The notes under the pieces were generated by a model that made no database searches, was not told where the DNA came from, and was given only the letters and a program-made list of their open reading frames with translations. 35,266 bases of DNA, taken from Arcobacter sp. GTDB taxonomy: Bacteria; Campylobacterota; Campylobacteria; Campylobacterales; Arcobacteraceae. The DNA is taken from the NCBI GenBank assembly GCA_002685075.1, contig NYWO01000056.1, forward strand, positions 1 to 35,266, written 5' to 3'. Made by a program: the position numbers and the translations under genes. Every line of letters starts with the position of its first letter. Within the stretch, counting starts at the first letter, position 1. Of this stretch, positions 1,543 to 27,531 are shown one piece after another.

Positions 1543-3360
1543 ATGAGAGACATTAGAAATATTGCAGTTATTGCGCACGTTGACCATGGTAAAACAACAC
1601 TTGTTGATGAATTATTAAAACAATCAGGAACTTTTTCTTCGCACCAAGAAGTAGATGAAAGAGTTATGGATAGTAATGATATTGAAAAAGAAAGAGGAAT
1701 TACAATTCTTTCTAAGAATACTGCTATTGATTATGAAGGTGTAAGAATTAACATTATTGACACTCCAGGCCATGCTGACTTTGGTGGAGAAGTTGAGAGA
1801 GTTCTTAAGATGGTTGACTCAGTATTATTACTAGTTGATGCTCAAGAAGGTACTATGCCTCAAACTAAATTCGTTGTTAAAAAAGCATTACAATTAGGTC
1901 ATAGACCAATTGTTGTTATTAACAAAATTGATAAGCCAGGTGCTGATGCAGATAGAGTTGTTGATGAAGTATTTGACCTGTTTGACCAAATGGGTGCAAC
2001 AGAAGAACAATTAGAATTCCCAGTTGTTTATGCAGCAGCAAGAGATGGTTATGCAAAACTTGACCTAGAAGAGCCTAATGAAAATTTAATCCCATTATTT
2101 ACAACTATTTTAAATGAAGTTCCAAAGCCAAAAGGTTCTGATGAAAATGGTCTTCAATTACAAGTATTTACACTTGACTATGACAACTTCATTGGAAAAA
2201 TTGGTATTGCTAGAATCTTCAACGGTACTATTTCTATGGGCGAAACAGTAACTTTAGTTAAAGCTGATGGTGAAAGAATCAAAGGTAGAGTTACTAAACT
2301 TATTGGATTCAAAGGTGTTGATAGATTTGATATCCAAACTGCTGGTACTGGTGATATTGTTGCTGTTGCTGGTTTTGAAACAATTGATGTTGGTGATTCA
2401 CTTTGTGATCCTACTAACCCAATGCCATTAGATCCAATGCATATTGAAGAGCCTACATTATCTGTTACTTTTGCAGTAAATGATTCTCCATTAGCAGGAA
2501 CTGAAGGTAAATATGTAACTTCTAACAAAATTGATGAAAGACTAGTTGCTGAAATGAATACTAATATTGCTATGAATTATGAGCAAATTGGTGAAGGTAA
2601 ATTCAAAGTTAACGGTAGAGGTGAATTACAAATTTGTATCCTTGCTGAAAACATGAGAAGAGAAGGTTTTGAGTTCTCTATTGGTAGACCAGAAGTAATT
2701 ACTAAAGAAGAAAATGGTGTAACATTAGAGCCATTTGAGCATTTAGTAATTGATACACCTGATGAGTTCTCTGGAGCAATTATTGAGAAGTTAGGAAAAA
2801 GAAAAGCTAATATGACAAACATGGTACCAATGGGTTCTGGTTATACAAGGTTAGAGTTTGAAATTCCAGCAAGAGGATTAATCGGTATTAGAACTGAGTT
2901 CTTAACTGAAACTAAAGGTGAGGGTGTTATGAATCACTCATTCTTAGAATTTAGACCTCACTCAGGTGTTGTTGAGTCTAGAAAATATGGAGCATTAGTT
3001 TCTATGGAAAATGGTGAAGCTGTTGGTTATTCAATCTTCAACTTACAAGATAGAGGGATTATGTACATTAAACCTCAAGATAAAGTTTATAACGGAATGG
3101 TTGTTGGTCAACATGCAAAAGCAAATGACTTAGATATCAATCCTATTAAAGCTAAGCAACAATCGAATGTTAGATCTTCTGGTGCAGATGAAGCCATTAA
3201 GTTAGTTCCACCAAGAGTTATGTCTTTAGAAAATGCATTAGAGTGGATTGAAGAAGATGAGCTTGTTGAAGTAACTCCTGTTTCTATTAGAGTTAGAAAA
3301 AGAGAGCTTGACCCAACAGCTAGAAAAAGAACAGCAAAGAAAGCAAAATTCGCTGAATAA
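1543..3360 (+). CDS. typA: ribosome-associated GTPase TypA/BipA
   Basis: 605 residues, full length for TypA/BipA, a translational GTPase that binds the ribosome and supports 50S assembly and growth under stress or cold. All G motifs are visible: [10 protein letters not shown] at 11-20 (P-loop), RGITI at 51-55, DTPGH at 73-77 and NKID at 127-130. EF-G-like domains II, III and V and the TypA-specific C-terminal domain follow; the C-terminus ends in a basic tail rich in Arg and Lys. The ATG follows an AAAGAG site. It is a single gene with its own promoter and a strong terminator. Confidence 0.98.
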
Positions 3361-3382
3361 AATTAGATTTATCTATTTTTAT

Positions 3383-3417
3383 AAAAGGATGAGCTTTTTA
3401 GCTCATCCTTTTTTTTT
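3383..3417 (+). terminator. rho-independent terminator of typA
   Basis: Perfect 9-bp stem GGATGAGCT (3387-3395) with AGCTCATCC (3400-3408), TTTT loop, extended by four A-T pairs and running into nine T residues (3409-3417). It sits 22 bases after the typA stop. Confidence 0.95.
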
Positions 3418-3500
3418 ACAAAATTTTTAGACAAAAGGGTTTATATGTCCGATATGAAGGTATTTAGGATTAGACAAAATTTAATAAATATAAAAAAATA

Positions 3501-3537
3501 ATAGGAGAATTTTTTCTCCTATAAAAAGGAGAAAAAA
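3501..3537 (+). promoter_or_regulatory. two mutually exclusive hairpins over a ribosome binding site
   Basis: Hairpin 1 pairs ATAGGAGAA (3501-3509) with TTCTCCTAT (3514-3522) around a TTTT loop: 9 perfect pairs. Hairpin 2 pairs TTTTTTCTCCT (3510-3520) with AGGAGAAAAAA (3527-3537) around a 6-base loop: 11 perfect pairs, covering the ribosome binding site and the first base of the start codon of the small ORF at 3537. The TTCTCCT segment is shared, so both cannot form at once: hairpin 1 frees the start site and hairpin 2 hides it. This layout is seen directly; a switch function is inference. Confidence 0.6.
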
Positions 3538-3620
3538 TGGAAAATATTAAAGATTATATAATAGTAATTACAATTGAATTTATCACAGTATTTACTAGCT
3601 TTATATTTATTAGTAATTAG
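3537..3620 (+). CDS. 27-residue hydrophobic small protein (possible membrane peptide)
   Basis: ATG at 3537 follows a strong AAAAAGGAG site by five bases. The product starts MENIKDYI and is then almost wholly hydrophobic and beta-branched (Ile, Val, Phe, Thr) from residue 8 to 25, enough for one membrane span, with a TAG stop at 3618. It stands alone between the typA terminator and the 3' end of the convergent AraC-type gene. I do not recognise it. A short toxic or regulatory membrane peptide would fit the occluded start site, but a chance ORF in AT-rich DNA cannot be excluded. Confidence 0.45.
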   Translation: MENIKDYIIVITIEFITVFTSFIFISN

Positions 3621-3632
3621 ACTTATTATAAA

Positions 3633-4514
3633 TTATGAAAATCTAATAGGCAAATAATAATTTGCTTTAAACTGTGAACTATTATCAAAGAAATCATTCT
3701 TCTCAAACTTTATGTATGAGGGAATGGTAGTAGCTTCATAACCACTATTTGGTAACCAATAGTGATATACCCATTGAATGAACTTTAAAATATCCTCATA
3801 CTTACCTTCAAAAGGAAACTTTGCACATAAACCATCATACAAATTAAAAAATGGTAAATTACTATTTTCAACAATATCTGCTTTATCTACCATAATTGCA
3901 GCCACATAATGACAATCTTCAGCTTTTGTAATAATAGGATTATCATGGTAAATACCAACTTGAGAATAGTTTATGATATTATTTGTATAAACCCAAGCTT
4001 TTAACTTTTGCCATGTTTGTCTAGCATGTGTTCCTAAACCTTTTTCTCTAATATAATAAGCTACTTTTTTTTCTATTTTAACAATTTGTGCTTCTATTAG
4101 AGAAAAGTCTTTTTTAATAAGACTTAATGAAGAATTAGAGTTTATTATTTTGTCAGAGAATTCTTTATATCCACCTTTTCTCCATTGCTTTGGTGTTTGA
4201 TTAAACCTTTGTTTAAAAGCTCGTAGAAATGATGTTTGAGAGCTATATCCACACATCGATGCAATTTTACTAATAGTTGAACCTTGATTAGTAATTAATA
4301 AATTGGATGCTTTTTGTAATCTAATTGATTTAATTGTTTCATATATATTTTCACCCATTTGTTCTTTAAAAATTCTATGAAAGTGAAACTTACTTACTTT
4401 AAATTCAATTGCCATTGCAGATATATTTATATCTGTATCGATGTAAGTATTTATATAATTTACCATCTCATTGGCTATTTTACAGTGTTTTAATGATGTT
4501 TCTTTCTTATGCAT
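3633..4514 (-). CDS. AraC-family transcriptional regulator with GyrI-like effector domain
   Basis: 293 residues. The N-terminal third (about residues 10-112) is an AraC/XylS DNA-binding domain with both helix-turn-helix units: FKVSKFHFHRIFKE near 42 and the signature KIASMCGYSSQTSFLRAFKQ near 83. The remainder (about 135-293) looks like a GyrI/Rob-type effector-binding domain, found in regulators that sense drugs or small hydrophobic ligands. The ATG has GGAT upstream. It is divergent from an EamA exporter with 135 bases between the starts, which suggests it controls that gene and itself. The ligand is unknown. Confidence 0.9.
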   Translation of the reverse strand: MHKKETSLKHCKIANEMVNYINTYIDTDINISAMAIEFKVSKFHFHRIFKEQMGENIYETIKSIRLQKASNLLITNQGSTISKIASMCGYSSQTSFLRAFKQRFNQTPKQWRKGGYKEFSDKIINSNSSLSLIKKDFSLIEAQIVKIEKKVAYYIREKGLGTHARQTWQKLKAWVYTNNIINYSQVGIYHDNPIITKAEDCHYVAAIMVDKADIVENSNLPFFNLYDGLCAKFPFEGKYEDILKFIQWVYHYWLPNSGYEATTIPSYIKFEKNDFFDNSSQFKANYYLPIRFS

Positions 4515-4584
4515 TTTCTAATCCATATGAGTTTTTGCATACTATAACAATAATAGAGTAAATAATTAGCACTAAATGATAATA

Positions 4585-4616
4585 AATTAAGCATTAATTA
4601 TAAAGTTATAAACTTT
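4585..4616. promoter_or_regulatory. paired palindromes in the araC-type/eamA divergent promoter region
   Basis: Two small palindromes lie side by side: AATTA-AGC-ATTAATT-type symmetry at 4585-4599 and AAAGTT-ATA-AACTTT (perfect 6-bp arms) at 4602-4616, just upstream of the eamA leader. A TATAGT -10 candidate for the regulator is at 4543-4548 (minus strand). They are plausible operators for the AraC-type protein, but AT-rich palindromes arise easily by chance. Confidence 0.35.
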
Positions 4617-4649
4617 TTTATTGGTTATTATTCTACAAAAGGATTAAAA

Positions 4650-5537
4650 ATGACAAAAAGAGATTTAAGTATTGCATTATTTATAACATTTATTTGGGGT
4701 ATTAATTTTTCATTTATAAAATTAGGATTATCTTCTTTAGATCCATTTATGTTAGCAGCACTTAGGTTTTTTCTTTGTTGTTTTCCATTAGTTTTTTTTA
4801 TTAAAAAACCTGATGTAGAATTTAAATATATTGTTTCTTATGGTTTATTATTTGGAGTTGGACTTTGGGGCGTACTATATTTAGGAATGTACTTTGGTGT
4901 CTCAGCAGGTGTTGCTTCTATCGTTTTACAGTTAGGAGTATTTTTAACTGTATTATTATCTTATATAATTTTAAATGAAAAAATCTATATTCATAATAAA
5001 ATTGCATTTATTGTTGCATTGATTGGAATTTTCTTGATATTTTTACTTGATGATGGAACAGTTACAGTATTAGGAATGATGTTTGTAATTTTATCTTCAG
5101 TATCTTTTGCCTTTTTGCAAATAATAGTAAAAAAAGCAAAGACTAAAGATGTATTTTCATTTCTAGTTTATTCAACACTTTTTCCACCTATACCTCTTCT
5201 TTTATTATCATATATAACAAATGGAGATGTTGTCTTTATAAATTTTCTTAGTAATATTGATTCTAATGCAATTATTTCAATACTTTTTCAAGTATATCCA
5301 ACAACGTTATTTGGTTATTACATTTGGAATATATTGTTAAATAAATACAAGGTATCTCAGATATCTCCACTTAGTTTACTAATACCAATATTTGGTCTAT
5401 TAGGTTCATATTTATTTTTTAATGAAGAAGTTGGATTTTATAAAATATTAGCTTCTTTGGTAATTATTCTAGGATTAGTTATAAATACTTTTGGTGCTAA
5501 AGTATTTACTAATTTAAAAAGAGTCGATAAAGACTAA
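4650..5537 (+). CDS. EamA/DMT-superfamily transporter
   Basis: 295 residues with about ten hydrophobic segments arranged as two EamA repeats (roughly residues 5-130 and 145-285). The start FITFIWGINFSFIKLGL with DPFMLAALRFF near residue 32 is typical of the DMT superfamily of inner-membrane metabolite exporters (YdcZ/RhaT-like; amino acid or metabolite efflux). AAAGGA lies 7 bases before the ATG. The neighbouring divergent AraC-type regulator suggests inducible export; the substrate cannot be told from sequence. Confidence 0.9.
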   Translation: MTKRDLSIALFITFIWGINFSFIKLGLSSLDPFMLAALRFFLCCFPLVFFIKKPDVEFKYIVSYGLLFGVGLWGVLYLGMYFGVSAGVASIVLQLGVFLTVLLSYIILNEKIYIHNKIAFIVALIGIFLIFLLDDGTVTVLGMMFVILSSVSFAFLQIIVKKAKTKDVFSFLVYSTLFPPIPLLLLSYITNGDVVFINFLSNIDSNAIISILFQVYPTTLFGYYIWNILLNKYKVSQISPLSLLIPIFGLLGSYLFFNEEVGFYKILASLVIILGLVINTFGAKVFTNLKRVDKD

Positions 5538-5867
5538 AATAATAGAGATAACTTTCATAAAAAATTATAATATTAAATAAAATGAAAATTATCTCTATAG
5601 AAAAGGAAAGAAGAAAGTAAATCCAATTAGGATGATTGGCTTATATCTAGCTTTGGCTTATAGTAGGAGGCCATAAAACGTATTGTATATATTAAGTGCT
5701 AAGATACTTTTTACTTCTTGGTTTGAAATCAAAGTTATTAATCAGTTTTATTTTTTAATATTTATTAAATTGGAGGAAAATAAAATAAATACTGATGTAA
5801 ATATTATGAAATTCATAAAGAAATTATATACTTCAATGATTAATGAATATTAAACACAAAGTTAAGA
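5538..5867. other. gene-poor 330-base stretch with structured repeats
   Basis: I see no convincing gene. It holds a long inverted repeat at 5542-5598 (listed separately) and a locally less AT-rich block at about 5620-5680 with a TTGGCTTATA direct repeat (5636-5645 and 5653-5662) and a small CCAAT/ATTGG hairpin at 5623-5639. A frame without ATG start is open from 5677 to 5853. The block could be a small RNA or gene remnant. No T-tract terminator for either flanking convergent gene is evident. Confidence 0.4.
5542..5598. repeat. 17-bp inverted repeat
   Basis: Arm 5542-5558 (ATAGAGATAACTTTCAT) is the reverse complement of arm 5582-5598 except at one position, with a 23-base AT-only loop. In minus-strand RNA the odd pair would be a tolerated G-U; in plus-strand RNA it is a C-A mismatch. 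There is no T-run on either side, so it is not a classic terminator. Confidence 0.7.
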
Positions 5868-7169
5868 TTAGTTAACAATTTTTTTAATTGATTTAATTAA
5901 GTCTTTTATTTCATCTTCACTTTGAGAAAAATGAATAGAAATTCTAATCCATCCTGGATTTTCTTCATTTTCTAAATCATCAATTCCTAGTAAATCATGA
6001 CCATAAGGTCCAGCACATGAACATCCTGCTCTTGTTTGGAAACCTTTTGTAGATGAAAGCTTTGAACACAATTCATAAGGGTCATGGTTTTGAATATTAA
6101 ATGAAACTATTCCAATATTATCTTCTTTCTTATTCCCATAAATTTCACAATTTGGAATATCTGTAAGACCATTGATTAACAATTTTTTTAAAGTATTTTT
6201 TCTTGTCTTTATAAAATCAAAACCAATTTCATTTCTGAGTTGATAAGCTAAACTTGCTCTAATTAATTGCAAGATCCCAGGAGTACCAGCGTCTTCTCTT
6301 ACTTGTATATCTTTTTGATAAACTTGTTTTTGCTTATTTACATATTTAACTGTTCCCCCACCTGCAAAAGAAGGAGCGATTGTTGTATCTATTAATGATT
6401 TTCTTATAACTAATAAACCACAAGAACCAGGACCGCCAAGAAGCTTATGTGGAGACATAAACATTGCATCATATAAATGTGAAGGAATATTCATATATGG
6501 TGATGAAGCTGCTGCATCGAAGCAAATTGTAGCATTGTATTTACGTAATATTTTTGATATCTCTTCATATTTTGTGATAATTCCTGTAACATTTGAAGCT
6601 ACACAAAATGATGCTATAATTTCTCTGTTTTTATTATCTTCAAGAACTTGTTTTAAATGTTCTAAATCTATTAATCCACATTCACATAAATTTATTCTTT
6701 GAATTTCACAAAGTGCTTCTCTAAATGAAACTTCATTGGAATGATGTTCATAAGGTCCAACAATTACTAAAGGTAGTTTTGACTTATCAACATTAATGTT
6801 ATATCGTTTTTTAGTTGCTGGGGGAATATAAAGACCCATAAGCTCTTGAAAATTTTTAATAGCAGCAGTTGTACCACAGCCATTTGGAAGTATTGCAAAC
6901 TCATCTGTAATTTCTAGATTTTTTGCTAAGTTTAATCTAGCCATTTCATAGTAATTACTTGTTGTATCTGCATTTGATGATTCTTTTGAATGAGTATTTG
7001 CATAAGTTTCTAAGACGTCATGTATTCTATTTTCTATTTGTCTAAAGGCTAGACCTGTTGCAGTATAGTCAAAATACTCTTTTTTATTTTTTCCAATAGT
7101 GTTATATCGTATAAAATTAAGAGTATCTGTATTTTCATTTAAAAATGGTTTGAAAATTTTGTTATTCAT
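5868..7169 (-). CDS. class V aminotransferase, cysteine desulfurase-like (SufS/CsdA type)
   Basis: 433 residues, the last gene of the sulfur operon, 8 bases after the half reductase gene. Class V PLP fold: HHSN at 142-145 (cofactor stacking), FDAA with D218, and SPHKLLGG with PLP lysine K242. Near the C-terminus RAGCSCAGPYGHDLL (380-394) carries candidate catalytic cysteines C383/C385, as in SufS-type desulfurases that strip sulfur from cysteine. It is not a close match to housekeeping IscS/NifS (around 400 residues with a long mobile Cys loop). Location suggests a sulfur-transfer job tied to assimilation; an epimerase or other lyase activity remains possible. Confidence 0.8.
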   Translation of the reverse strand: MNNKIFKPFLNENTDTLNFIRYNTIGKNKKEYFDYTATGLAFRQIENRIHDVLETYANTHSKESSNADTTSNYYEMARLNLAKNLEITDEFAILPNGCGTTAAIKNFQELMGLYIPPATKKRYNINVDKSKLPLVIVGPYEHHSNEVSFREALCEIQRINLCECGLIDLEHLKQVLEDNKNREIIASFCVASNVTGIITKYEEISKILRKYNATICFDAAASSPYMNIPSHLYDAMFMSPHKLLGGPGSCGLLVIRKSLIDTTIAPSFAGGGTVKYVNKQKQVYQKDIQVREDAGTPGILQLIRASLAYQLRNEIGFDFIKTRKNTLKKLLINGLTDIPNCEIYGNKKEDNIGIVSFNIQNHDPYELCSKLSSTKGFQTRAGCSCAGPYGHDLLGIDDLENEENPGWIRISIHFSQSEDEIKDLIKSIKKIVN

Positions 7170-18812: not shown

Positions 18813-19088
18813 TTAATAAACATCATCATGTGTTCCAATATCAACTAAGATTATTTCACCATCTCTAATAATAAAATCAATAATAATTCTATATTCCATA
18901 TTTATAGAAATTGAATAAAACTCTGCTAATCGTCCTTTTAGTTTATGAATTCTTAGGCTTGGGTGATAAGGGTCTTGTTCTAATATAAATAAACATTTTG
19001 AATACCTATCCAACATATTTGGATGTTTTTTAAAAAACTTTTTTAGTTTCTTTTTATACTCATCACTTATTAGTAGTTTATAACTCAT
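18813..19088 (-). CDS. RelE/ParE-family toxin (YafQ/StbE-like)
   Basis: 91 residues. The start SYKLLISDEYKKKLKKFFKKHP, the middle HPSLRIHKLKGRLAEFYSIS and the ending YRIIIDFIIRDGEIILVDIGTHDDVY are typical of RelE-superfamily toxins, small endoribonucleases that usually cut mRNA on the ribosome. The start overlaps the antitoxin stop by 11 bases, the normal translational coupling of a type II module. Intact length and conserved His near the C-terminus suggest it is functional. Confidence 0.88.
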   Translation of the reverse strand: MSYKLLISDEYKKKLKKFFKKHPNMLDRYSKCLFILEQDPYHPSLRIHKLKGRLAEFYSISINMEYRIIIDFIIRDGEIILVDIGTHDDVY

Positions 19089-19332
19089 TTTTTAGTTCTT
19101 CAATATGCTCTCTGGCACTTTGCGTTTTATAATTACCTTTTTCAATATCTTGCATCGTTTTTAAGTATGCTAAATCTAGTTCATTTGCTCTTAATTCTTT
19201 ATATCTTTCAATATCAATAACAACAAATTTATTTTTTCCTCTAACATTTATAACTAATTCATCAAATTTATCAAGAAGCGTTGCAAATATTGAAACACCT
19301 TTTGTTTTTACTTCATTTGCATTAATTACCAT
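19078..19332 (-). CDS. Phd/YefM-family antitoxin
   Basis: 84 residues. VINANEVKTKGVSIFATLLDKFDELVINVRGKNKFVVIDIERYKEL is the Phd/YefM N-terminal DNA-binding fold; the C-terminal helical part (about 55-84) would wrap and neutralise the RelE-type toxin encoded just downstream. The ATG follows AAGGAT by about 6 bases. It is driven by a perfect consensus promoter with a palindrome in the spacer, fitting autorepression by the toxin-antitoxin complex. Confidence 0.85.
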   Translation of the reverse strand: MVINANEVKTKGVSIFATLLDKFDELVINVRGKNKFVVIDIERYKELRANELDLAYLKTMQDIEKGNYKTQSAREHIEELKNEL

Positions 19333-19440: not shown

Positions 19441-19467
19441 AAATTCCGGGGACACGGTACTAATTAT
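19441..19467 (+). repeat. GGGGACA repeat motif, copy 2
   Basis: AAATTCCGGGGACACGGTAC followed by TAATTAT, homologous to 18773-18800. Its end overlaps the stop codon of the second toxin gene on the other strand. Confidence 0.7.
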
Positions 19468-19754
19468 CTATAAACATCTTTTCTATGAGAAACTCTTAAA
19501 ACCAAAATCACTAGTTTGTTATTAATTTTTTCATAAATAACTCTATATGTTCTAAGTCTTAATCTATAAAGACCTTTAAATTCACCTTTTAAAGCTTTTA
19601 TTTTACTTACTTTGATTAACTCTTTTTCATATTCTTCATCAAAATTATTGATAAAACTTTCCAATTCATCTAAAATAAAATTTCTTGTAGATTTATCTAA
19701 AGATAAAATATCCTTAGAAGCCTTTTTATCAATATCTAAACTATACTGACTCAT
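19464..19754 (-). CDS. RelE/ParE-family toxin 2
   Basis: 96 residues. SQYSLDIDKKASKDILSLDKSTRNFILDEL followed by IKALKGEFKGLYRLRLRTYRVIYEK and LVILVLRVSHRKDVYR is a classic RelE-type ribonuclease toxin, including the basic RLRxYRVIY strand and the SHRKDVYR end with catalytic-type His/Arg residues. The start overlaps the antitoxin stop by 14 bases. It is distinct in sequence from toxin 1. Confidence 0.92.
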   Translation of the reverse strand: MSQYSLDIDKKASKDILSLDKSTRNFILDELESFINNFDEEYEKELIKVSKIKALKGEFKGLYRLRLRTYRVIYEKINNKLVILVLRVSHRKDVYR

Positions 19755-19971
19755 TAGATAATTTTCTCATTTGGCTTAAACTTATAGTTTCATTTTTTTC
19801 CATACTTCTTTTCTTTGCAATTTGTAAATCTAAATGGTCAAAATAAAATTCTAATGCTTGACTAACTAAAGCACTTTTATTTTGATTTAAATCTTCTGCA
19901 AATTGAGTAACTTCATCTGCTAAGTTTTGTGGTACTGAAATCAACATCTTTTTATTTTTAGTTGTTATCAT
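19741..19971 (-). CDS. ribbon-helix-helix antitoxin of pair 2
   Basis: 76 residues. KMLISVPQNLADEVTQFAEDLNQNKSALVSQALEFYFDHL is a MetJ/Arc-type ribbon-helix-helix (beta strand then two helices), dimerising to bind DNA. The remaining 25 residues should contact the toxin. AAAGGA lies 7 bases upstream of the ATG. A perfect 18-bp palindrome lies 27-44 bases upstream. Confidence 0.85.
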   Translation of the reverse strand: MITTKNKKMLISVPQNLADEVTQFAEDLNQNKSALVSQALEFYFDHLDLQIAKKRSMEKNETISLSQMRKLSNESV

Positions 19972-20490: not shown

Positions 20491-20964
20491 TTAACAGCAA
20501 CCCTCACTAGGTTTTGCTATAGAAAAAGCTGGTTTTTTATCATCATTAAATGTTGGAGTACAGCACTGGCTATGTTCATTTCCTCCATATAATTCTACAT
20601 CATTCATTGAATGATAGTTTTCCCAGATTAGACCACTTGGGTCATTTATCCAGTATTTATTTGATTCTTTATAACAGCATATTGCACCAACTTCTTCTTT
20701 ACCTTTGATTCCAGCATCTTCAAAACTTTTTTGTGCATTACTTAATGCTTCGTCACTTTCGTATTGAATTCCTAAGTGATTAAGGCCTTTTTCTTCACCT
20801 TTTGTTGATATTGCAAAGTTTACAGATATATCTTCTAGTAACCATTGTGCATAGTCTTCTTTTACTTTAGTAGGTTTTGCATCAAATTGTATATTATAAA
20901 AATGTATGCTTTCTTCTAAGTTATCAACTGTAATATGCATATGTAATCTTTTTTTATTATTCAT
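20491..20964 (-). CDS. ArsI/CadI-family vicinal-oxygen-chelate dioxygenase
   Basis: 157 residues. RLHMHITVDNLEESIHFYNIQF starts a glyoxalase/VOC fold. Candidate metal ligands are H8 or H10, H63 and E115, and a vicinal C96-C97 pair (GAICCYKESNKYW) lies where ArsI C-As lyases bind trivalent organoarsenicals; two further CC pairs occur at 134-135 and at the very C-terminus. ArsI cleaves methyl- or phenyl-arsenite C-As bonds; the related CadI is cadmium-induced. A strong AAAGGAGA site precedes the ATG. No other ars gene is in the window, so the natural substrate is uncertain. Confidence 0.87.
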   Translation of the reverse strand: MNNKKRLHMHITVDNLEESIHFYNIQFDAKPTKVKEDYAQWLLEDISVNFAISTKGEEKGLNHLGIQYESDEALSNAQKSFEDAGIKGKEEVGAICCYKESNKYWINDPSGLIWENYHSMNDVELYGGNEHSQCCTPTFNDDKKPAFSIAKPSEGCC

Positions 20965-21011
20965 TTCTATCTCCTTTTCTAGTTTGTAAATTTATAATCT
21001 CAAAATCAATG

Positions 21012-21047
21012 AACATCCTACTTAAATATCAATTTAAGTACGATGTT
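21012..21047 (-). terminator. stem-loop after the phosphate/polyphosphate operon
   Basis: Arms 21012-21026 and 21033-21047 pair over 15 positions with one C-C mismatch around a 6-base loop, 10 bases beyond the second PPK2 stop. The downstream minus-strand tract is T-rich but not a clean T-run, so termination efficiency is uncertain. Confidence 0.6.
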
Positions 21048-21057
21048 ATTTTAAATA

Positions 21058-21897
21058 TTATTTAAGTGAAAATTTAAACATACTTTCCATGTTTATAGTT
21101 TCATCTCTTCCATAAACTATAATATCTTTATCTACTGTTATTTTTTTATCAGAGATTTTATTTGGATAGTCTACATATTGTAAGATATGCTTAATACAAT
21201 TTATTCTAGCTCTTTTTTTATCATCACTTTTAATAATTGTCCATGGAGCATCTTCTGTATGAGTTGCACTTAACATCATAAATTTAGCAAGTGTATATTC
21301 ATCCCATAATCTTTGAGATTCTTTATCTACAGGGCTTAACTTATATTGTTTTAAAGGATCTGTTTCTCTTTCTTTAAATCTTCTGCTTTGTTCTTCTTTT
21401 GAAACTGAGAAGTAAAATTTAAAGATTTGGATTCCTTCATCAACAATCATTTTTTCAAAAGCAGGAGCATCTTTTAAAAACTTATGGTGTTCTCTTTCTG
21501 TACAAAATCCCATAACAGGTTCAACCATAGAACGGTTATACCAAGACCTATCAAATAATACTAATTCTCCCGCACTAGGAAGATGTTTTACATATCTTTG
21601 AAAGTACCATTGTGTTGATTCTTCAATTGATGGTTTTTCTAAAGCTACTACTCTTGCACCCCTTGGATTTAAATGCTCAGTAATTCTTTTTATTGTTCCA
21701 CCTTTTCCCGCTGCATCTCTACCTTCAAAAATCATAAGAACCTTTAATCCAGCATCTTTTATATGATTTTGGAATTTAAGAAGCTCTACTTGTAATCTTC
21801 TTAATTCTTTTTCATAAGCTAGCTTTTCATTTTTTACCCAAATTTGAGTTTTACCTTCATTTTTCTTAGCTTCTTCAACTTTTAATTCGTTTTTCAT
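21058..21897 (-). CDS. polyphosphate kinase 2 (PPK2), second copy
   Basis: 279 residues from the ATG at 21895-21897 (AAGGAG 5 bases upstream; an earlier ATG in frame lacks a site and overlaps the previous gene). PPK2 kinases move phosphate between polyphosphate and nucleoside di- or monophosphates. Walker A GRDAAGKGGT at 59-68, Walker B VLFDRSWYNR at 113-122, and the lid RRFKERETDPLKQYKLSPVD are present. Single-domain length and sequence suggest the class I group (ADP or GDP to triphosphate), but class cannot be settled by eye. It is 8 bases after the paralogue. Confidence 0.94.
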   Translation of the reverse strand: MKNELKVEEAKKNEGKTQIWVKNEKLAYEKELRRLQVELLKFQNHIKDAGLKVLMIFEGRDAAGKGGTIKRITEHLNPRGARVVALEKPSIEESTQWYFQRYVKHLPSAGELVLFDRSWYNRSMVEPVMGFCTEREHHKFLKDAPAFEKMIVDEGIQIFKFYFSVSKEEQSRRFKERETDPLKQYKLSPVDKESQRLWDEYTLAKFMMLSATHTEDAPWTIIKSDDKKRARINCIKHILQYVDYPNKISDKKITVDKDIIVYGRDETINMESMFKFSLK

Positions 21898-21905
21898 GAG
21901 TCTCC

Positions 21906-22802
21906 TTAGTTCGTAAATTTTCCACAACTGATTCGTTGAGCATCCATTATTTCTATTTCTCTTGCACCAGAAATCACAATATCAGGGTCAAGAAGATAAT
22001 CAAGATTTTCATCTCTATTTGCATAATCTACAGAACCTAAGATTACTTTTAATGATTCTATTCTAGCTTTTTGCTTATCATCTGATCGTATAACAGTCCA
22101 AGGTGCATTATGTGAATTTGTGTGTTTTAGCATTTGATATTTAGAATTTGTAAAGTCATCCCATCTTTCTTGTGCTTGCATATCAATTTCACTTAATTTC
22201 CATTGTCTTAAAGGATCAGTTTTTCTTCTCTCAAATCTTCTTGCTTGTTCTGCTTTTGTAACACTATAATAAAGTTTTACAAAAATAATACCTTGTGTTG
22301 TAAGATCTTTTTCAAAGCTTGAAACACCTGACATAAAGTCATCATACTCTTTTTGAGTACAGAAATTAAATACAGATTCAACCATAGCTCTGTTGTACCA
22401 AGATCTATCAAATAGTACTATTTCTCCTGCTCTTGGGAAATGTTGTATATATTTTTGATAGAACCATTGAGTTCTTTGCTCTTCAGTTGGTTTCCCTAAT
22501 GCTACAACTCTATAATGCTTTTCATCCATATATCTAGTAACTCTTCTAATAGTACCACCTTTTCCAGCAGCATCTCTTCCTTCAAAAAGTATTATCATTT
22601 TTTGATTTGTCTCTTCTAAATGCTTTTGTAGTTTTATTAACTCAGCTTGGTAAGGTTTTAATCTTTTTTCATCATCTCTTTTTTTCTTTGCTTTACTGTC
22701 CGTAGCTTTCTCTTCTTTTTGGCTTTTGTAAAAGTTTACTAATTCTTCTAGAGATATTTTTTCTCCATCAATTTCGATTAATTCTTGAGTATTTTTTTCC
22801 AT
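21906..22802 (-). CDS. polyphosphate kinase 2 (PPK2), first copy
   Basis: 298 residues from the ATG at 22800-22802; the ATG two codons upstream directly abuts the AAAAAGG site, so the second one has the proper 6-base spacing. Walker A GRDAAGKGGT at about 76-85, Walker B VLFDRSWYNR at about 129-138, lid ARRFERRKTDPLRQWKLSEID. It carries an extra charged N-terminal stretch of about 50 residues, KKKRDDEK-rich, lacking in the second copy. The two kinases are clearly diverged paralogues rather than a recent duplication, implying different nucleotide or direction preference. Confidence 0.94.
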   Translation of the reverse strand: MEKNTQELIEIDGEKISLEELVNFYKSQKEEKATDSKAKKKRDDEKRLKPYQAELIKLQKHLEETNQKMIILFEGRDAAGKGGTIRRVTRYMDEKHYRVVALGKPTEEQRTQWFYQKYIQHFPRAGEIVLFDRSWYNRAMVESVFNFCTQKEYDDFMSGVSSFEKDLTTQGIIFVKLYYSVTKAEQARRFERRKTDPLRQWKLSEIDMQAQERWDDFTNSKYQMLKHTNSHNAPWTVIRSDDKQKARIESLKVILGSVDYANRDENLDYLLDPDIVISGAREIEIMDAQRISCGKFTN

Positions 22803-22826
22803 TTCCATCCTTTTTATTTAATTGGT

Positions 22827-23078
22827 TTATTTTTCTGAGATTAGTTTATGAAGTAGTTTTCTAGCTTTTTTTAGGTGAATTGATACTATTTCATACTCTT
22901 CTTCTAAGAGTTTTTTTCTTTTTTTACTAATCTTTTTATTTAAAGATTTCTTGATTTGCCTTTTTTTATTATCTAAATTTTTGATTATCTTTTTTAATGT
23001 TTTCTTTTTTTTAGTAGTTTCCATAACTTCTAATCCCAAAAACTCTGTAACTTTAGTAATAAATTTTTTAGCACTCAT
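22827..23078 (-). CDS. lysine-rich small protein in phosphate operon
   Basis: 83 residues, of which 25 are lysine and 3 arginine. The first 20 residues (SAKKFITKVTEFLGLEVMET) look like a short amphipathic helix; residues 23-58 are a run of Lys pairs and triplets, and 59-83 an amphipathic helix. No known domain is recognised. Its ATG overlaps the stop of the Na/Pi cotransporter by one base and the first PPK2 follows 24 bases later, so it is co-translated with phosphate and polyphosphate genes. Binding of polyphosphate by the lysine tracts is a reasonable but untested inference. Confidence 0.75.
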   Translation of the reverse strand: MSAKKFITKVTEFLGLEVMETTKKKKTLKKIIKNLDNKKRQIKKSLNKKISKKRKKLLEEEYEIVSIHLKKARKLLHKLISEK

Positions 23079-24874
23079 TATTCGTCCTTTTTATTTAAAA
23101 TTTTGTGTACATCTTCATCATCAATTAATAAATCATTATTTTCACGATTGTATAAAATCTCTGCCATAGAGATTAGTTTTTTACTTATATCAAAAGCATA
23201 AGAGCTATCATTCATAAGTGAAGTTGCCATTTTATTTGTAATTAGACCATTTCTAATCAAATTATCCAAAGTGCCATTTGAAATAAAGTCGTATTTTTGT
23301 GCATGAAGTTTTACTTTTGAAAGTAACACTAAAACTTTTTCTTCTTCTTGTGTATTAGAAATAATATCAATACTTCTAAGTAGTGATACCAAATCTTTTC
23401 TCATATTTCTATACTCTTCTCTAATATGCCCATTTTTATCATTTGAGTATAAAACTAAATTTTTTTGAAGATGTTTTGTATCTTTTATTGCTTCAACTAT
23501 AGCTTTATTTGCAAGTTTCAATCTAAATAATTGATCTATTTCTTCAGGTGTCATATTAGTTTGTGCTCTAGCAGAGAAGTCGATAATCTCTCCATAAATA
23601 CCTTTTATTTTTCTATTATAAAAATTATCTATGTCAATCTTTACATTAATAAACTTTTCTTCAACAACTTCATCAAGTGGCATAGTAGATAGAATATTTC
23701 TTCTTTTTACATTTATTCCATGTGCAATTATTTCAAATGCATTTTCATATAAATGAAATGTCTCTCTTTTTATAGCTGCCATTGCAGTTGAAGGTAGCTC
23801 TAAAACGGAATCATTTAAAAATTTTGCATTGTCAATATCTTTATCAATATCTTCTTTTGGTGATTTAAGTGTTGATTCTAAAAATATAACAAGTTTTGGA
23901 ATAAATGGAATCATTACAACTACACCAATTGTATTAAATATTGTGTGGAAAACTGCTAGTTTTAAACTATAGTCATCATTTGCAATTCCTACATATGAAC
24001 TTATATAATTAACTGAAAACATTATTTGATATATAAAGATAATAGCAATTAGTCCTGTAACCATATTAAATATTAAATGTGCTCCTGCAAGTCTTTTCCC
24101 TTCGATATTTGAACTCATTGCACCAATAATTGCAGTAATTGTGGTACCTACATTAGCACCAATTGCAAGAGCAAGTGCATTTTCATAAGATATTTGTCCT
24201 ACTGATAAAGCAGTAATTATAAGAACAAGTGTTGCATGAGATGATTGCATTACAACTGTTGCAAAAATTCCAATACCTGTAAAAATAAACAGACCTTTTA
24301 ATCCAGTAACTGAAAAAGCAGTTAAATTTATAGTACTTTTAAAAGCTTCAAATCCTTCTTTCATATAATGAATTCCTAAAAATAAGAAACCTAGTCCTGC
24401 TAAAATATATCCAAACCCTTTTAATGATTTAGATTTTTGAAATATTAAAATTACACCAAATACAAGCATAGGCATTGCATAGGCTGCAATATTTACTTTT
24501 AAACCAAATCCAGCAACAAGCCAAGCCCCAGTTGTTGTACCAATATTTGCTCCAAAAACTATTCCTATGCCTTGAGCAAGTCCTATAAGACCAGCTCCAA
24601 GAAAAGAGATAGTTAGAACTGAAACAAGTGAGCTTGATTGCATCACAGTAGTAGCAAGAACTCCAAATCCAATACTCTTATAAAGTTTATCAGTAGACTT
24701 TCGTAAGATCTTTTCTAAACCACCTCCTGAAAAAGCTTTAAATCCTTCTTCTAAAGATAACATCCCAAATAAGAAAATAGCAACACCTGCTGAAATTTCT
24801 TTAAAATCTGAACTAACCCAGAATCCATATGCAAGAATTAATAGTATGAAAGGTAGTAAAAATCTTCTTAACAT
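23078..24874 (-). CDS. Na/Pi cotransporter (PNaS family) with PhoU-like C-terminal domain
   Basis: 598 residues. Two inverted membrane repeats carry the family motifs: TTVMQSSSLVSVL near 75-87 with GANIGTT at 108-114, and TVVMQSSHATLVL near 206-218 with GANVGTT at 239-245; the QSS segments bind Na+ and phosphate. About 8-9 spans are followed by a cytoplasmic helical part (about 375-590) resembling PhoU. It would import phosphate driven by sodium, matching the NhaD antiporter elsewhere in the window. The start overlaps the PiT stop by one base. Confidence 0.92.
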   Translation of the reverse strand: MLRRFLLPFILLILAYGFWVSSDFKEISAGVAIFLFGMLSLEEGFKAFSGGGLEKILRKSTDKLYKSIGFGVLATTVMQSSSLVSVLTISFLGAGLIGLAQGIGIVFGANIGTTTGAWLVAGFGLKVNIAAYAMPMLVFGVILIFQKSKSLKGFGYILAGLGFLFLGIHYMKEGFEAFKSTINLTAFSVTGLKGLFIFTGIGIFATVVMQSSHATLVLIITALSVGQISYENALALAIGANVGTTITAIIGAMSSNIEGKRLAGAHLIFNMVTGLIAIIFIYQIMFSVNYISSYVGIANDDYSLKLAVFHTIFNTIGVVVMIPFIPKLVIFLESTLKSPKEDIDKDIDNAKFLNDSVLELPSTAMAAIKRETFHLYENAFEIIAHGINVKRRNILSTMPLDEVVEEKFINVKIDIDNFYNRKIKGIYGEIIDFSARAQTNMTPEEIDQLFRLKLANKAIVEAIKDTKHLQKNLVLYSNDKNGHIREEYRNMRKDLVSLLRSIDIISNTQEEEKVLVLLSKVKLHAQKYDFISNGTLDNLIRNGLITNKMATSLMNDSSYAFDISKKLISMAEILYNRENNDLLIDDEDVHKILNKKDE

Positions 24875-26505
24875 TATAAAACAATACCTCTAATCATAAA
24901 GTATACCATTGCAGATAATACAGCAGCAGCTGGAACAGTAATGATCCAAGCTGCTACGATTTTTTTAATTGCATTTCTTTTTACATATTGTACTTTTTGA
25001 GCTGTTTTTAGATTTTTCTTTGCTTCTCTTAGTTTTTCTTCTTCTTCATCTACTTTTTTATATAGCTCAACAATTGTTTCATAATCATCTTTTTTCTTAT
25101 TTTTTTTCTTTCCTAAGTGTTTAAGTTGAGCTTGAAATGCTCTTAAAACTTTTTTCTCATCTTCAACTACTTCTTGACCAATTGCAATTACATCTTTTTT
25201 CTCAGTAGTATCTAAATACTCTCTTAAAAAACCTACTCCAAAAATACCACCAACTGCAATATGTGTAGAAGATACTGGAAGTCCTAATTGTGATGCAATA
25301 ATTACAGTAATAGATGCAGCCATCGCAACAGAAAAAGCTCTCATTTGATCTAACTCAGTTATTTCAGAACCAACTGTTCTAATTAGCTTTGGACCATATA
25401 AAGCAAGACCAAGAGCAATACCTAAAGCACCAACTGCCATAACCCATAAAGGGATACCTGCATTTGACGAAATACCACCTGTCATAACAGCATCATTAAT
25501 AGCCGCTAAGGGTCCAATTGCATTTGCAACATCATTTGCACCGTGTGCAAAAGATAAAAGTGCAGCTGCAAAAATAAGAGGAACTGTAAACATAGAATTT
25601 ATACCAGCTCTACTATTTTCAACATTATGAGCTTTTTTAGATAAAAGTGCTTTTACAAAAATATAAACTGCTATTGCAATTATAAGACCTAGTATCGCTG
25701 CAATTAAAAATGAAGGTTTTTTAGCATCTGGTAGAAATATTAATATATCAACAATATGTGGCCAAACTTTTTTTAATCCTTTAAGTATTAAGTATGTAAC
25801 AAATGCCCAAGACATGATACTTACAAAAATAGGTACCCATTTTTTAGCTGCTTCAATTTTGTTTTCTTTATACACCATAGAACGCTTAATAGAATATAAA
25901 AATGCAGCAGCTATAACTCCTCCTAATATAGGTGAGATAATCCACGATGCAGCAATTTTAACCATTGTTCCCCAAGCAACTATAGAAAAACCAGCAGCTG
26001 CAATACCTGCACCCATGACACCTCCAACAATAGAGTGAGTTGTTGATACAGGAGCTTTAATCATAGTTGCAAAATTTAGCCATAAAGCAGCAGATAAAAG
26101 TGCAGCCATCATTGCCCAAATAAAAGATTCTGTATCAGTGCCAAATGCATCAATATCAATAATCCCCTTTTTGATTGTATTTACAACTTCTCCCCCAGCA
26201 ATTAAAGCACCAGCTGCTTCAAAAATAGCTGCAATTATAATAGCACCACCCATAGTAAGTGCTTTAGAACCAACAGCAGGACCTACATTATTGGCAACAT
26301 CATTAGCACCTATATTCATAGCCATATAAGCACCAAAAAGTGCTGCTATCCCTAAGAACATATTATTTGGAACGCCACCTGAACTTAAAAAACTATAGGT
26401 TAAAACAGCAACCATAAAGAATAATGCAAATCCTAATCTTAGAAAGTCAACACCACTACTTTTTATTGCTTCTTTTTCCATTTTTTTTACAGTTTGTATT
26501 TCCAT
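24874..26505 (-). CDS. pit: inorganic phosphate transporter, PiT family
   Basis: 543 residues. Duplicated PiT signatures are seen: NIGANDVANNVGPAVGS at 64-80 and HGANDVANAIGP at 321-332, each followed by a P-V-S-(S/T)-T-H motif (152-157 and 410-415). About 10-11 spans. PiT proteins import metal-phosphate using the proton or sodium gradient. Residues 436-508 form a long, highly charged insertion (KKKNKKKDD and Glu-rich helix) before the last membrane span, likely coiled coil on the cytoplasmic side. AAAGGT precedes the ATG. First gene of the operon. Confidence 0.95.
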   Translation of the reverse strand: MEIQTVKKMEKEAIKSSGVDFLRLGFALFFMVAVLTYSFLSSGGVPNNMFLGIAALFGAYMAMNIGANDVANNVGPAVGSKALTMGGAIIIAAIFEAAGALIAGGEVVNTIKKGIIDIDAFGTDTESFIWAMMAALLSAALWLNFATMIKAPVSTTHSIVGGVMGAGIAAAGFSIVAWGTMVKIAASWIISPILGGVIAAAFLYSIKRSMVYKENKIEAAKKWVPIFVSIMSWAFVTYLILKGLKKVWPHIVDILIFLPDAKKPSFLIAAILGLIIAIAVYIFVKALLSKKAHNVENSRAGINSMFTVPLIFAAALLSFAHGANDVANAIGPLAAINDAVMTGGISSNAGIPLWVMAVGALGIALGLALYGPKLIRTVGSEITELDQMRAFSVAMAASITVIIASQLGLPVSSTHIAVGGIFGVGFLREYLDTTEKKDVIAIGQEVVEDEKKVLRAFQAQLKHLGKKKNKKKDDYETIVELYKKVDEEEEKLREAKKNLKTAQKVQYVKRNAIKKIVAAWIITVPAAAVLSAMVYFMIRGIVL

Positions 26506-26549
26506 TCTCTACCTTTGTAATCATATTGTTATTAGGTTTTCTTATATAT

Positions 26550-26578
26550 ATTATAGAGCAAAGTAGATAAATAAACAA
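26550..26578 (-). promoter_or_regulatory. promoter of the phosphate/polyphosphate operon
   Basis: On the minus strand TTGTTT (26573-26578), 17-base spacer, TATAAT (26550-26555), about 45 bases upstream of the pit ATG. Spacing is ideal and the -10 is perfect. I see no match to a known Campylobacterota Pho box next to it. Confidence 0.75.
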
Positions 26579-26582
26579 GCGA

Positions 26583-26630
26583 TAAAATAGTACTTTTTAA
26601 TGATTATCACAATAAAAAATTACTATTTTA
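26583..26630. promoter_or_regulatory. 48-base inverted repeat with Fur-box-like centre upstream of pit
   Basis: TAAAATAGTA (26583-26592) and TACTATTTTA (26621-26630) are perfect 10-bp inverted arms, continued inward by T and A runs. Near the centre, the minus strand reads TGTGATAATCATTA, which agrees with the enterobacterial Fur consensus at about 14 of 19 positions over the full site. It lies just upstream of the -35 box. Whether a Campylobacterota Fur would bind is uncertain. Confidence 0.5.
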
Positions 26631-26709
26631 TATAATAAAGTTTTATGAAGTTTTAAAATTTAATTATTTAGAAGATTTACAGATATATGACTAGATTTGT
26701 GTGGAATAA

Positions 26710-27531
26710 TTATTCAATTATTCCACTCATGCAAGTAACTTCAAGACCTTCATTTCTCCAAGCCTTTACAATTTCAAGTAAGCCAATACTATCACTAGGC
26801 ATATGAGGTGCAATGATTATATTTCCTATATTTTGTTCTGAAACTGCTTTTTTCACATCTTCAGGAACATGCATAGCTATAATAGTTCCAACACCTGCTT
26901 CAAAGTATGATTTATATACATCAACTCCACCATTAGTTCCTCCCGCCATTAAAACTTCTATTTTTCCTGCATAATCACTAGCACTTCCAACTCTAATAAC
27001 AGGTTGTGCAACTTTTCCTATATAATATTCCCATGAGTTTAATTCTTCTATAATATCTTGAAGTTTAGTTTTTGGTTTAGTTTTAAAAGCTTTATCAAGT
27101 CTTGATTGAACTATTTCTTCTGTTATAAAATCAGCAGGAATATGGATATTTAAATAGGGCATTTTCATTAATCTTGCAGCTGAGCTAACTCTATCATAAT
27201 TAAAAGCATGACTTCCTAGTTCTACATTTTGTTGTTTCTTTCTTAGTGCTTTTTGAGCCTTGTTTATTGGAACTCCAGCTTTTACCATTCTATCAATCTG
27301 TACATCCATAACTTTGGCAAAGTCAACTATACAAGAATCTGCTTTTGGGTGATGAGATACTACACAATCAAAACCCATTTGCTGTGCTAAAAGTAATTCA
27401 GGAGTTTCCATATCTATACCAATAAGTACTTTTTTGATATTTTTACCCTCAACAATAATATTTGTATCATAAGGGATAGAGTCTAATTTCGCAAGTTTTA
27501 GCGTAGTGTTCATTAAGTTTGTTGTATTCAT
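26710..27531 (-). CDS. NIF3/DUF34-family dinuclear metal protein
   Basis: 273 residues. IKKVLIGIDMETPELLLAQQMGFDCVVSHHPK near 32-63 is the NIF3 hallmark with the HH metal pair, and IIAMHVPEDVKKAVSEQ with NIIIAPHMPSDSIGLLEI near the C-terminus supplies the closing ligands. NIF3-like proteins form hexameric toroids with a two-metal site; the reaction is unknown, and links to GTP cyclohydrolase or metal insertion have been proposed. A 10-bp stem (26701-26710 with 26717-26726) overlaps the stop codon. No operon partner is clear. Confidence 0.85.
   Translation of the reverse strand: MNTTNLMNTTLKLAKLDSIPYDTNIIVEGKNIKKVLIGIDMETPELLLAQQMGFDCVVSHHPKADSCIVDFAKVMDVQIDRMVKAGVPINKAQKALRKKQQNVELGSHAFNYDRVSSAARLMKMPYLNIHIPADFITEEIVQSRLDKAFKTKPKTKLQDIIEELNSWEYYIGKVAQPVIRVGSASDYAGKIEVLMAGGTNGGVDVYKSYFEAGVGTIIAMHVPEDVKKAVSEQNIGNIIIAPHMPSDSIGLLEIVKAWRNEGLEVTCMSGIIE

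Follow-up and report, generated by a model that had tools for sequence, protein, structure and literature searches.

Gene organization of the locus

The locus analysed here belongs to a stretch of DNA of 35,266 nucleotides from Arcobacter sp., and we refer to this whole stretch as the window. On its minus strand, an ORF of 83 codons at 22827-23078 is annotated as ‘hypothetical protein’ in two public records. The genes around it are arranged in the order PiT, Na/Pi symporter, hairpin (the product of the ORF, named for its predicted fold), PPK2, PPK2, and this agrees with the position between phosphate transport and PPK2 genes that was described in the first-pass annotation. The features of the locus are as follows.

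21058..21927, minus strand: PPK2 polyphosphate kinase, second copy (PF03976, E 2.4e-99)
21906..22808, minus strand: PPK2 polyphosphate kinase, first copy (PF03976, E 2.6e-86)
22827..23078, minus strand: basic protein, predicted helical hairpin (ORF; dN/dS 0.13-0.35; alignment A3 of 68 sequences; AlphaFold2 model)
23078..24874, minus strand: NptA-type Na/Pi symporter, 598 aa (PF02690, E 2.7e-48; NF037997, 151.9 bits against a cut-off of 50)
23081..23857, minus strand: predicted cytosolic C-terminal PhoU-like domain, symporter residues 340-598 (AlphaFold2 pLDDT 90.8; Foldseek matches in the PDB)
23085..23089, minus strand: AAGGA, resembling a Shine-Dalgarno sequence, within the last part of the symporter gene (read from the sequence)
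24874..26505, minus strand: PiT-type phosphate transporter (PF01384, E 9.9e-113)

The start codon of the hairpin gene (ATG, 23078-23076) shares one base with the TAA stop codon of the upstream Na/Pi symporter gene (23080-23078), and the AAGGA motif is located a few bases 5' of this ATG. Both observations are consistent with the translational coupling to the upstream gene that had been proposed. The scan for promoters and terminators in the region 20900-26800 yielded fewer promoter-like sites than shuffled sequences, and one terminator-like site versus 1.5 expected.

Some further properties of the window were recorded. The two PPK2 genes share 22 bases (window positions 21906-21927) if the second copy starts at TTG. 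The PiT protein (window positions 24874-26505) contains a strongly charged Lys/Glu-rich insert near its C-terminus, at about residues 430-520. Two adjacent gene pairs with small ORFs are found at 18813-19332 and 19464-19971, and we assume that they resemble type II toxin-antitoxin modules (RelE/ParE-like genes with small antitoxin-like ORFs). A phage or mobile origin of the hairpin was also considered and rejected, as a tblastn search of viral contigs gave no match.

Composition, selection and predicted structure of the hairpin protein

Lysine accounts for 25 of the 83 residues of the window protein, which is the 30% given in the first-pass annotation, along with 3 Arg and 9 Asp+Glu; the longest lysine run is KKKK. 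This is the highest lysine fraction among the 57 ORFs of at least 60 aa in the window (20% in the runner-up). The gene is clearly under purifying selection, with a dN/dS of 0.13 in comparison with Poseidonibacter lekithochrous, where the symporter and the first PPK2 of the same species pair have 0.17 and 0.06, respectively, and of 0.35 and 0.32 in comparison with two further species of the same genus. Because of these values (0.13-0.35), a chance or low-complexity ORF is ruled out.

By sequence comparison, the hairpin appears to represent an uncatalogued family that is absent from Pfam and NCBIfam, and the earlier statement that it belongs to no recognised family still stands. The best scores of the window protein were E 0.048 in Pfam and E 0.0053 in NCBIfam (16.8 bits, cut-off 70), and thus no score exceeded a curated cut-off. 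When 68 members were compared with both collections, no family was matched by more than two of them at E 0.01. The comparison of the hairpin profile with PDB sequences resulted only in matches with E 0.03 or worse, mostly to one stretch of the RNA polymerase beta' subunit.

The AlphaFold2 model, built from a 68-row alignment, contains helices at residues 3-14 (pLDDT about 60), 21-47 and 52-82 (about 90). The last two helices form a confidently predicted, basic hairpin, and the short helix ahead of them is modelled with low confidence. In the model the lysines are placed on the hairpin helices 21-47 and 52-82 themselves, and the previous description of lysine tracts flanked by helices needs to be revised. 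The family members range from about 67 to 100 aa and share conserved hydrophobic core positions (e.g. residue 35 is Leu in 94%). They also share a Q-R-K-K-G patch at positions 68-72, conserved in 76, 74, 72, 96 and 82%, respectively, where the window protein has H-L-K-K-A. A Foldseek search with the model gave 335 matches, all of them weaker than E 0.001, which is the usual outcome for a helical hairpin.

The family conserves total positive charge and not lysine density, since the Arg content climbs with GC (r 0.67) while the sum of Lys and Arg, on average 31.7% across the family, shows no trend (r 0.15). The lysine tracts had been regarded as the point of the protein; this idea has to be abandoned, as lysine density is unconserved in the family. 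Lysine itself as the conserved trait is ruled out by the Arg trend with GC and by the number of lysine-dense relatives (26 of 68).

These properties would also suit a small basic protein that binds nucleic acids or associates with ribosomes; its adjacency to the symporter would then reflect co-expression only. The high charge, the small size and a helical hairpin like those of several RNA-binding proteins would be in line with such a function. However, no match above the cut-off to nucleic-acid-binding families was obtained, and a single kind of neighbour across bacterial classes, together with near absence where there is no symporter (see below), is unexpected for a free-standing regulator. 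We regard this explanation as a long shot.

Distribution of the family and linkage to Na/Pi symporters

By a combination of sequence searches and reading of gene neighbourhoods, we identified the hairpin family in Campylobacterota and in Gamma-, Alpha- and Zetaproteobacteria, with many aquatic and sediment bacteria among its carriers. Starting from a single sequence, we detected matches in 11 of the 41 genomes, and those in G013 and G038, at loci without a symporter, were judged to be spurious. Further searches used the profile A1, built from ten sequences, and the broad profile A3, built from 68.

The A1 profile, which is blind to gene position, gave 68 matches in 62 of the 104 genomes of the host's taxonomic family. 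Among these, 63 are located -20 to +90 nt behind an independently found PF02690 symporter gene. The remaining five include two matches at most 110 bases from the first base of their contig and one hairpin (L054) that follows a PiT gene and precedes two PPK2 genes, with no adjacent symporter. We also read 19 symporter loci without an A1 match, most of which hold another small lysine-rich ORF at this place.

In a scan of named genomes with the symporter alignment, the best 80 of 511 relatives were kept, and three of their loci end inside the symporter. The hairpin is present downstream in 66 of the 77 readable loci, a count that is not position-blind, since 62 of the 66 were chosen by position and composition and the other four (L157, L163, L168 and L197) by a profile of those 62. 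It is missing at 11 loci (L145, L152, L161, L173, L179, L182, L185, L190, L192, L200 and L201), although at L161 only 160 bases are left on the contig. One locus (L207, positions 2868-7028) has a tandem symporter-hairpin-symporter-hairpin arrangement, and another (L142) carries a second hairpin.

Application of the A3 profile, again irrespective of gene position, to the 30 genomes of the named loci, which had been chosen for holding a symporter, resulted in 32 matches in 24 genomes. Of 30 matches viewed, 26 are located directly behind a PF02690-type gene, which in three cases (L226, L234 and L235) is of a second, more distant type. The matches without a symporter upstream are L232 (weak, E 0.0086), L236, L237 and L238, with orphans among these exceptions. 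The strong homologue L237 (E 2.3e-15) comes from the genome of L208 (Azoarcus taiwanensis), and we take its adjoining gene to encode a TRAP DctM-like transporter.

In 298 genomes of the phylum, A3 gave 33 matches, and again 26 of the 30 viewed are found directly behind a symporter. The exceptions are L247, L254, L256 and L267, the last of which is spurious, being inside an ORF of 438 codons. Altogether three of the 33 matches are inside ORFs of 438-522 codons, and 30 genomes with a credible match are left. A symporter at E 1e-60 or better was present in 29 of these 30 genomes (all except G328) versus 145 of all 298, as counted by eye and uncorrected for relatedness. Among 20 symporter ends from distant Campylobacterota, all 17 from two families are without such an ORF, and the other three (L314, L317 and L318) are followed by a hairpin version of 68-80 aa. 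Our guess is that the two families without a hairpin are Campylobacteraceae and Helicobacteraceae.

The homologues are thus found behind Na/Pi symporters and not mostly outside phosphate operons, in keeping with the phosphate-related context on which the first-pass annotation had relied. The constant neighbour of the hairpin is the NptA-type symporter (PF02690), whose C-terminal domain is PhoU-like, and not PPK2. Across several proteobacterial classes the hairpin gene begins at the end of the symporter gene, with an overlap or a short gap, and this gene order indicates functional linkage, not contact. No natural fusion of the two proteins was seen at the C-terminal ends of symporters at 18 loci outside the first selection.

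The gap between the two genes is zero or negative in 58 of 94 thinned pairs, which favours production at the nascent symporter. The hairpin could then be a helper in the assembly or membrane insertion of the symporter during translation and not a regulator, a function that its N-terminal amphipathic helix would also suit. However, symporters of the same family in Helicobacter- and Campylobacter-like bacteria lack the hairpin, and we find such a helper function quite improbable.

Association with PPK2 and the polyphosphate proposal

A PPK2 match was detected in 8 of the 66 hairpin loci, many of these loci being short; of the 42 hairpin loci that exceed 9 kb, PPK2 is present in two and PiT in 17. 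None of nine PPK2 loci that are remote from the symporter contains a hairpin homologue. These numbers do not bear out the particular tie to PPK2 that had been suggested for the window, and gene order rules out PPK2 as a constant partner.

Two genomes of the phylum have other arrangements. In G366, the locus L247 has the order hairpin-PPK2-PPK2; two divergent genes are presumably pstC and pstA, and there is no adjacent symporter. The symporter of this genome (L274) is elsewhere and has no hairpin. In G310, the symporter (L275) is directly followed by a PPK2-like gene, and the hairpin (L256) is an orphan on another contig.

According to the first-pass annotation, the hairpin would be a polyphosphate binder, either a granule scaffold or a sensor, that serves the PPK2 pair. 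Regions that are lysine-rich or PASK-like have been described to bind polyphosphate (PMC12077175, PMC12345225). In a P. aeruginosa study, the two polyphosphate-shifted proteins had nine Lys in 20 residues, four of them consecutive (PMC12077175). Like the KPM and PASK binders, the hairpin has dense lysine at least in the window member, which reaches 10 Lys within 20 residues, contains KKKK and thus has the lysine density that defines KPM proteins (at least three consecutive Lys, about nine in 20). For PASK, defined by a 20-residue segment with at least 75% D/E/S/K, the maximum in the window protein is 65%. The preservation of hairpin-PPK2-PPK2 without an adjacent symporter at L054 (behind PiT) and L247 also favours this proposal.

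In contrast to those binders, lysine density is unconserved in the hairpin family: at least nine Lys in 20 residues are found in 26 of 68 relatives, an additional run of three in 18 of 68, and the PASK rule holds for 4 of 68. The scarcity of PPK2 in long hairpin loci and the nine PPK2 loci without a hairpin likewise count against the proposal. The gel shift of YihI was abolished by a Lys-to-Arg change, as described in the same reports (PMC12077175, PMC12345225), and the exchange of Arg for Lys in GC-rich members of the hairpin family therefore bears on this question. Moreover, YihI reportedly binds through a disordered region (PMC12345225), in contrast to the predicted hairpin. Overall, we consider a polyphosphate binder in the service of the PPK2 pair to be unlikely; judged from its lysine content, polyphosphate binding by the window member is possible, but it is not a hallmark of the family.

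Opposite charges of the hairpin and the PhoU-like domain of the symporter

The C-terminal domain of the symporter is predicted to be PhoU-like from its model, and the nine top-ranking PDB entries found by Foldseek (E 0.018 to 0.58) are PhoU or PhoU-like proteins or 1sum, an entry whose title gives only a hypothetical protein. The hairpin has a net positive and the PhoU-like domain a net negative charge in 111 of 118 pairs. Independent contrasts of the two charges were correlated outside Campylobacterota (n=56, r -0.40, p 0.002), where the membrane-domain control gave r -0.09, and uncorrelated within Campylobacterota, the phylum of the window (r +0.10, p 0.44, n=62). The pooled contrasts were borderline (r -0.18, p 0.056, n=118), with a membrane-domain control near zero, and were weaker than in a smaller earlier set (r -0.33, p 0.007, n=66). 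Charge matching is thus only suggestive, favouring contact outside Campylobacterota and not within this phylum.

A tail motif was seen in 60 of 118 symporters with a hairpin versus 3 of 35 without, but the pattern was written after viewing the tails, one locus (L114) is in both lists and relatedness is uncorrected, and we place no reliance on it.

Comparison with known systems

The SPX fold has a cluster of lysines to which inositol pyrophosphate or polyphosphate binds. Like the SPX domains found in phosphate transporters of eukaryotes, the hairpin combines a basic helical module with phosphate transport, which would be an analogous solution; however, it is far shorter, and SPX was found neither by Pfam nor among the best 50 of the 335 Foldseek matches. 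MgtS, one of the small proteins that bind transporters, is a short membrane peptide that binds PitA. Both MgtS and, by our proposal, the hairpin are small proteins that modulate a phosphate transporter, but the hairpin looks soluble, is basic and is encoded in the transporter's own operon.

The PhoU and PitR regulators are helical proteins of the cytosol that accompany one transporter family, either encoded alongside it or fused to it, and the window symporter itself has such a domain. The same tie to one transporter family is observed for the hairpin, with a PF02690 gene upstream of 63 of 68 matches and, in each of the two A3 surveys, of 26 of the 30 viewed. In contrast to these regulators, it has about one third of their size, is strongly basic and occurs in addition to the PhoU-like domain. 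A PhoU-type helical domain was not matched in the hairpin, which is a single hairpin of about 80 aa.

Our literature search, which covered titles and the beginnings of abstracts, found no description of such a hairpin protein. The terms ‘lysine’ and ‘small protein’ are absent from a report on altered phosphate control in aureus (PMC13170248).

Proposed role of the hairpin protein

A partner of the symporter is probably the best-supported role of the hairpin, with regulation via the PhoU-like domain as the likeliest mechanism. We give about an even chance to the hairpin being an accessory protein dedicated to NptA-type Na/Pi symporters with a PhoU-like cytosolic domain. Transport as such does not require it, because 11 of 77 symporters in the named loci and 17 of 17 Campylobacter- and Helicobacter-like symporters have no hairpin. 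The homologues away from a symporter (two with PPK2, one by a TRAP-like gene, and orphans) count against a partner role.

As a partner, the hairpin would be made together with the symporter and would bind its acidic PhoU-like domain in the cytosol, perhaps with the N-terminal helix and lysines of the hairpin touching the membrane surface as well. It may thereby tune Pi import or the signal of the PhoU-like domain to phosphate control, and in the operon of the window the phosphate taken up would be consumed by the downstream PPK2. If the hairpin binds polyphosphate or a different phosphate-rich ligand, this could be an input signal and would not define its function. The full version of this scheme, in which a basic hairpin subunit attaches to the PhoU-like domain of NptA symporters and reads polyphosphate or a similar polyanion, is a speculative extension that we rate as very unlikely to hold in its entirety.

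If docking and ligand reading were true, the hairpin would represent a further class of regulator of bacterial phosphate import and a bacterial counterpart of the SPX modules of eukaryotic transporters, in kind and not by descent. NptA-type symporters with a PhoU-like domain are common, and a conserved, uncatalogued candidate partner offers a concrete second component for them. Studies of such symporters as single genes may therefore miss a subunit.
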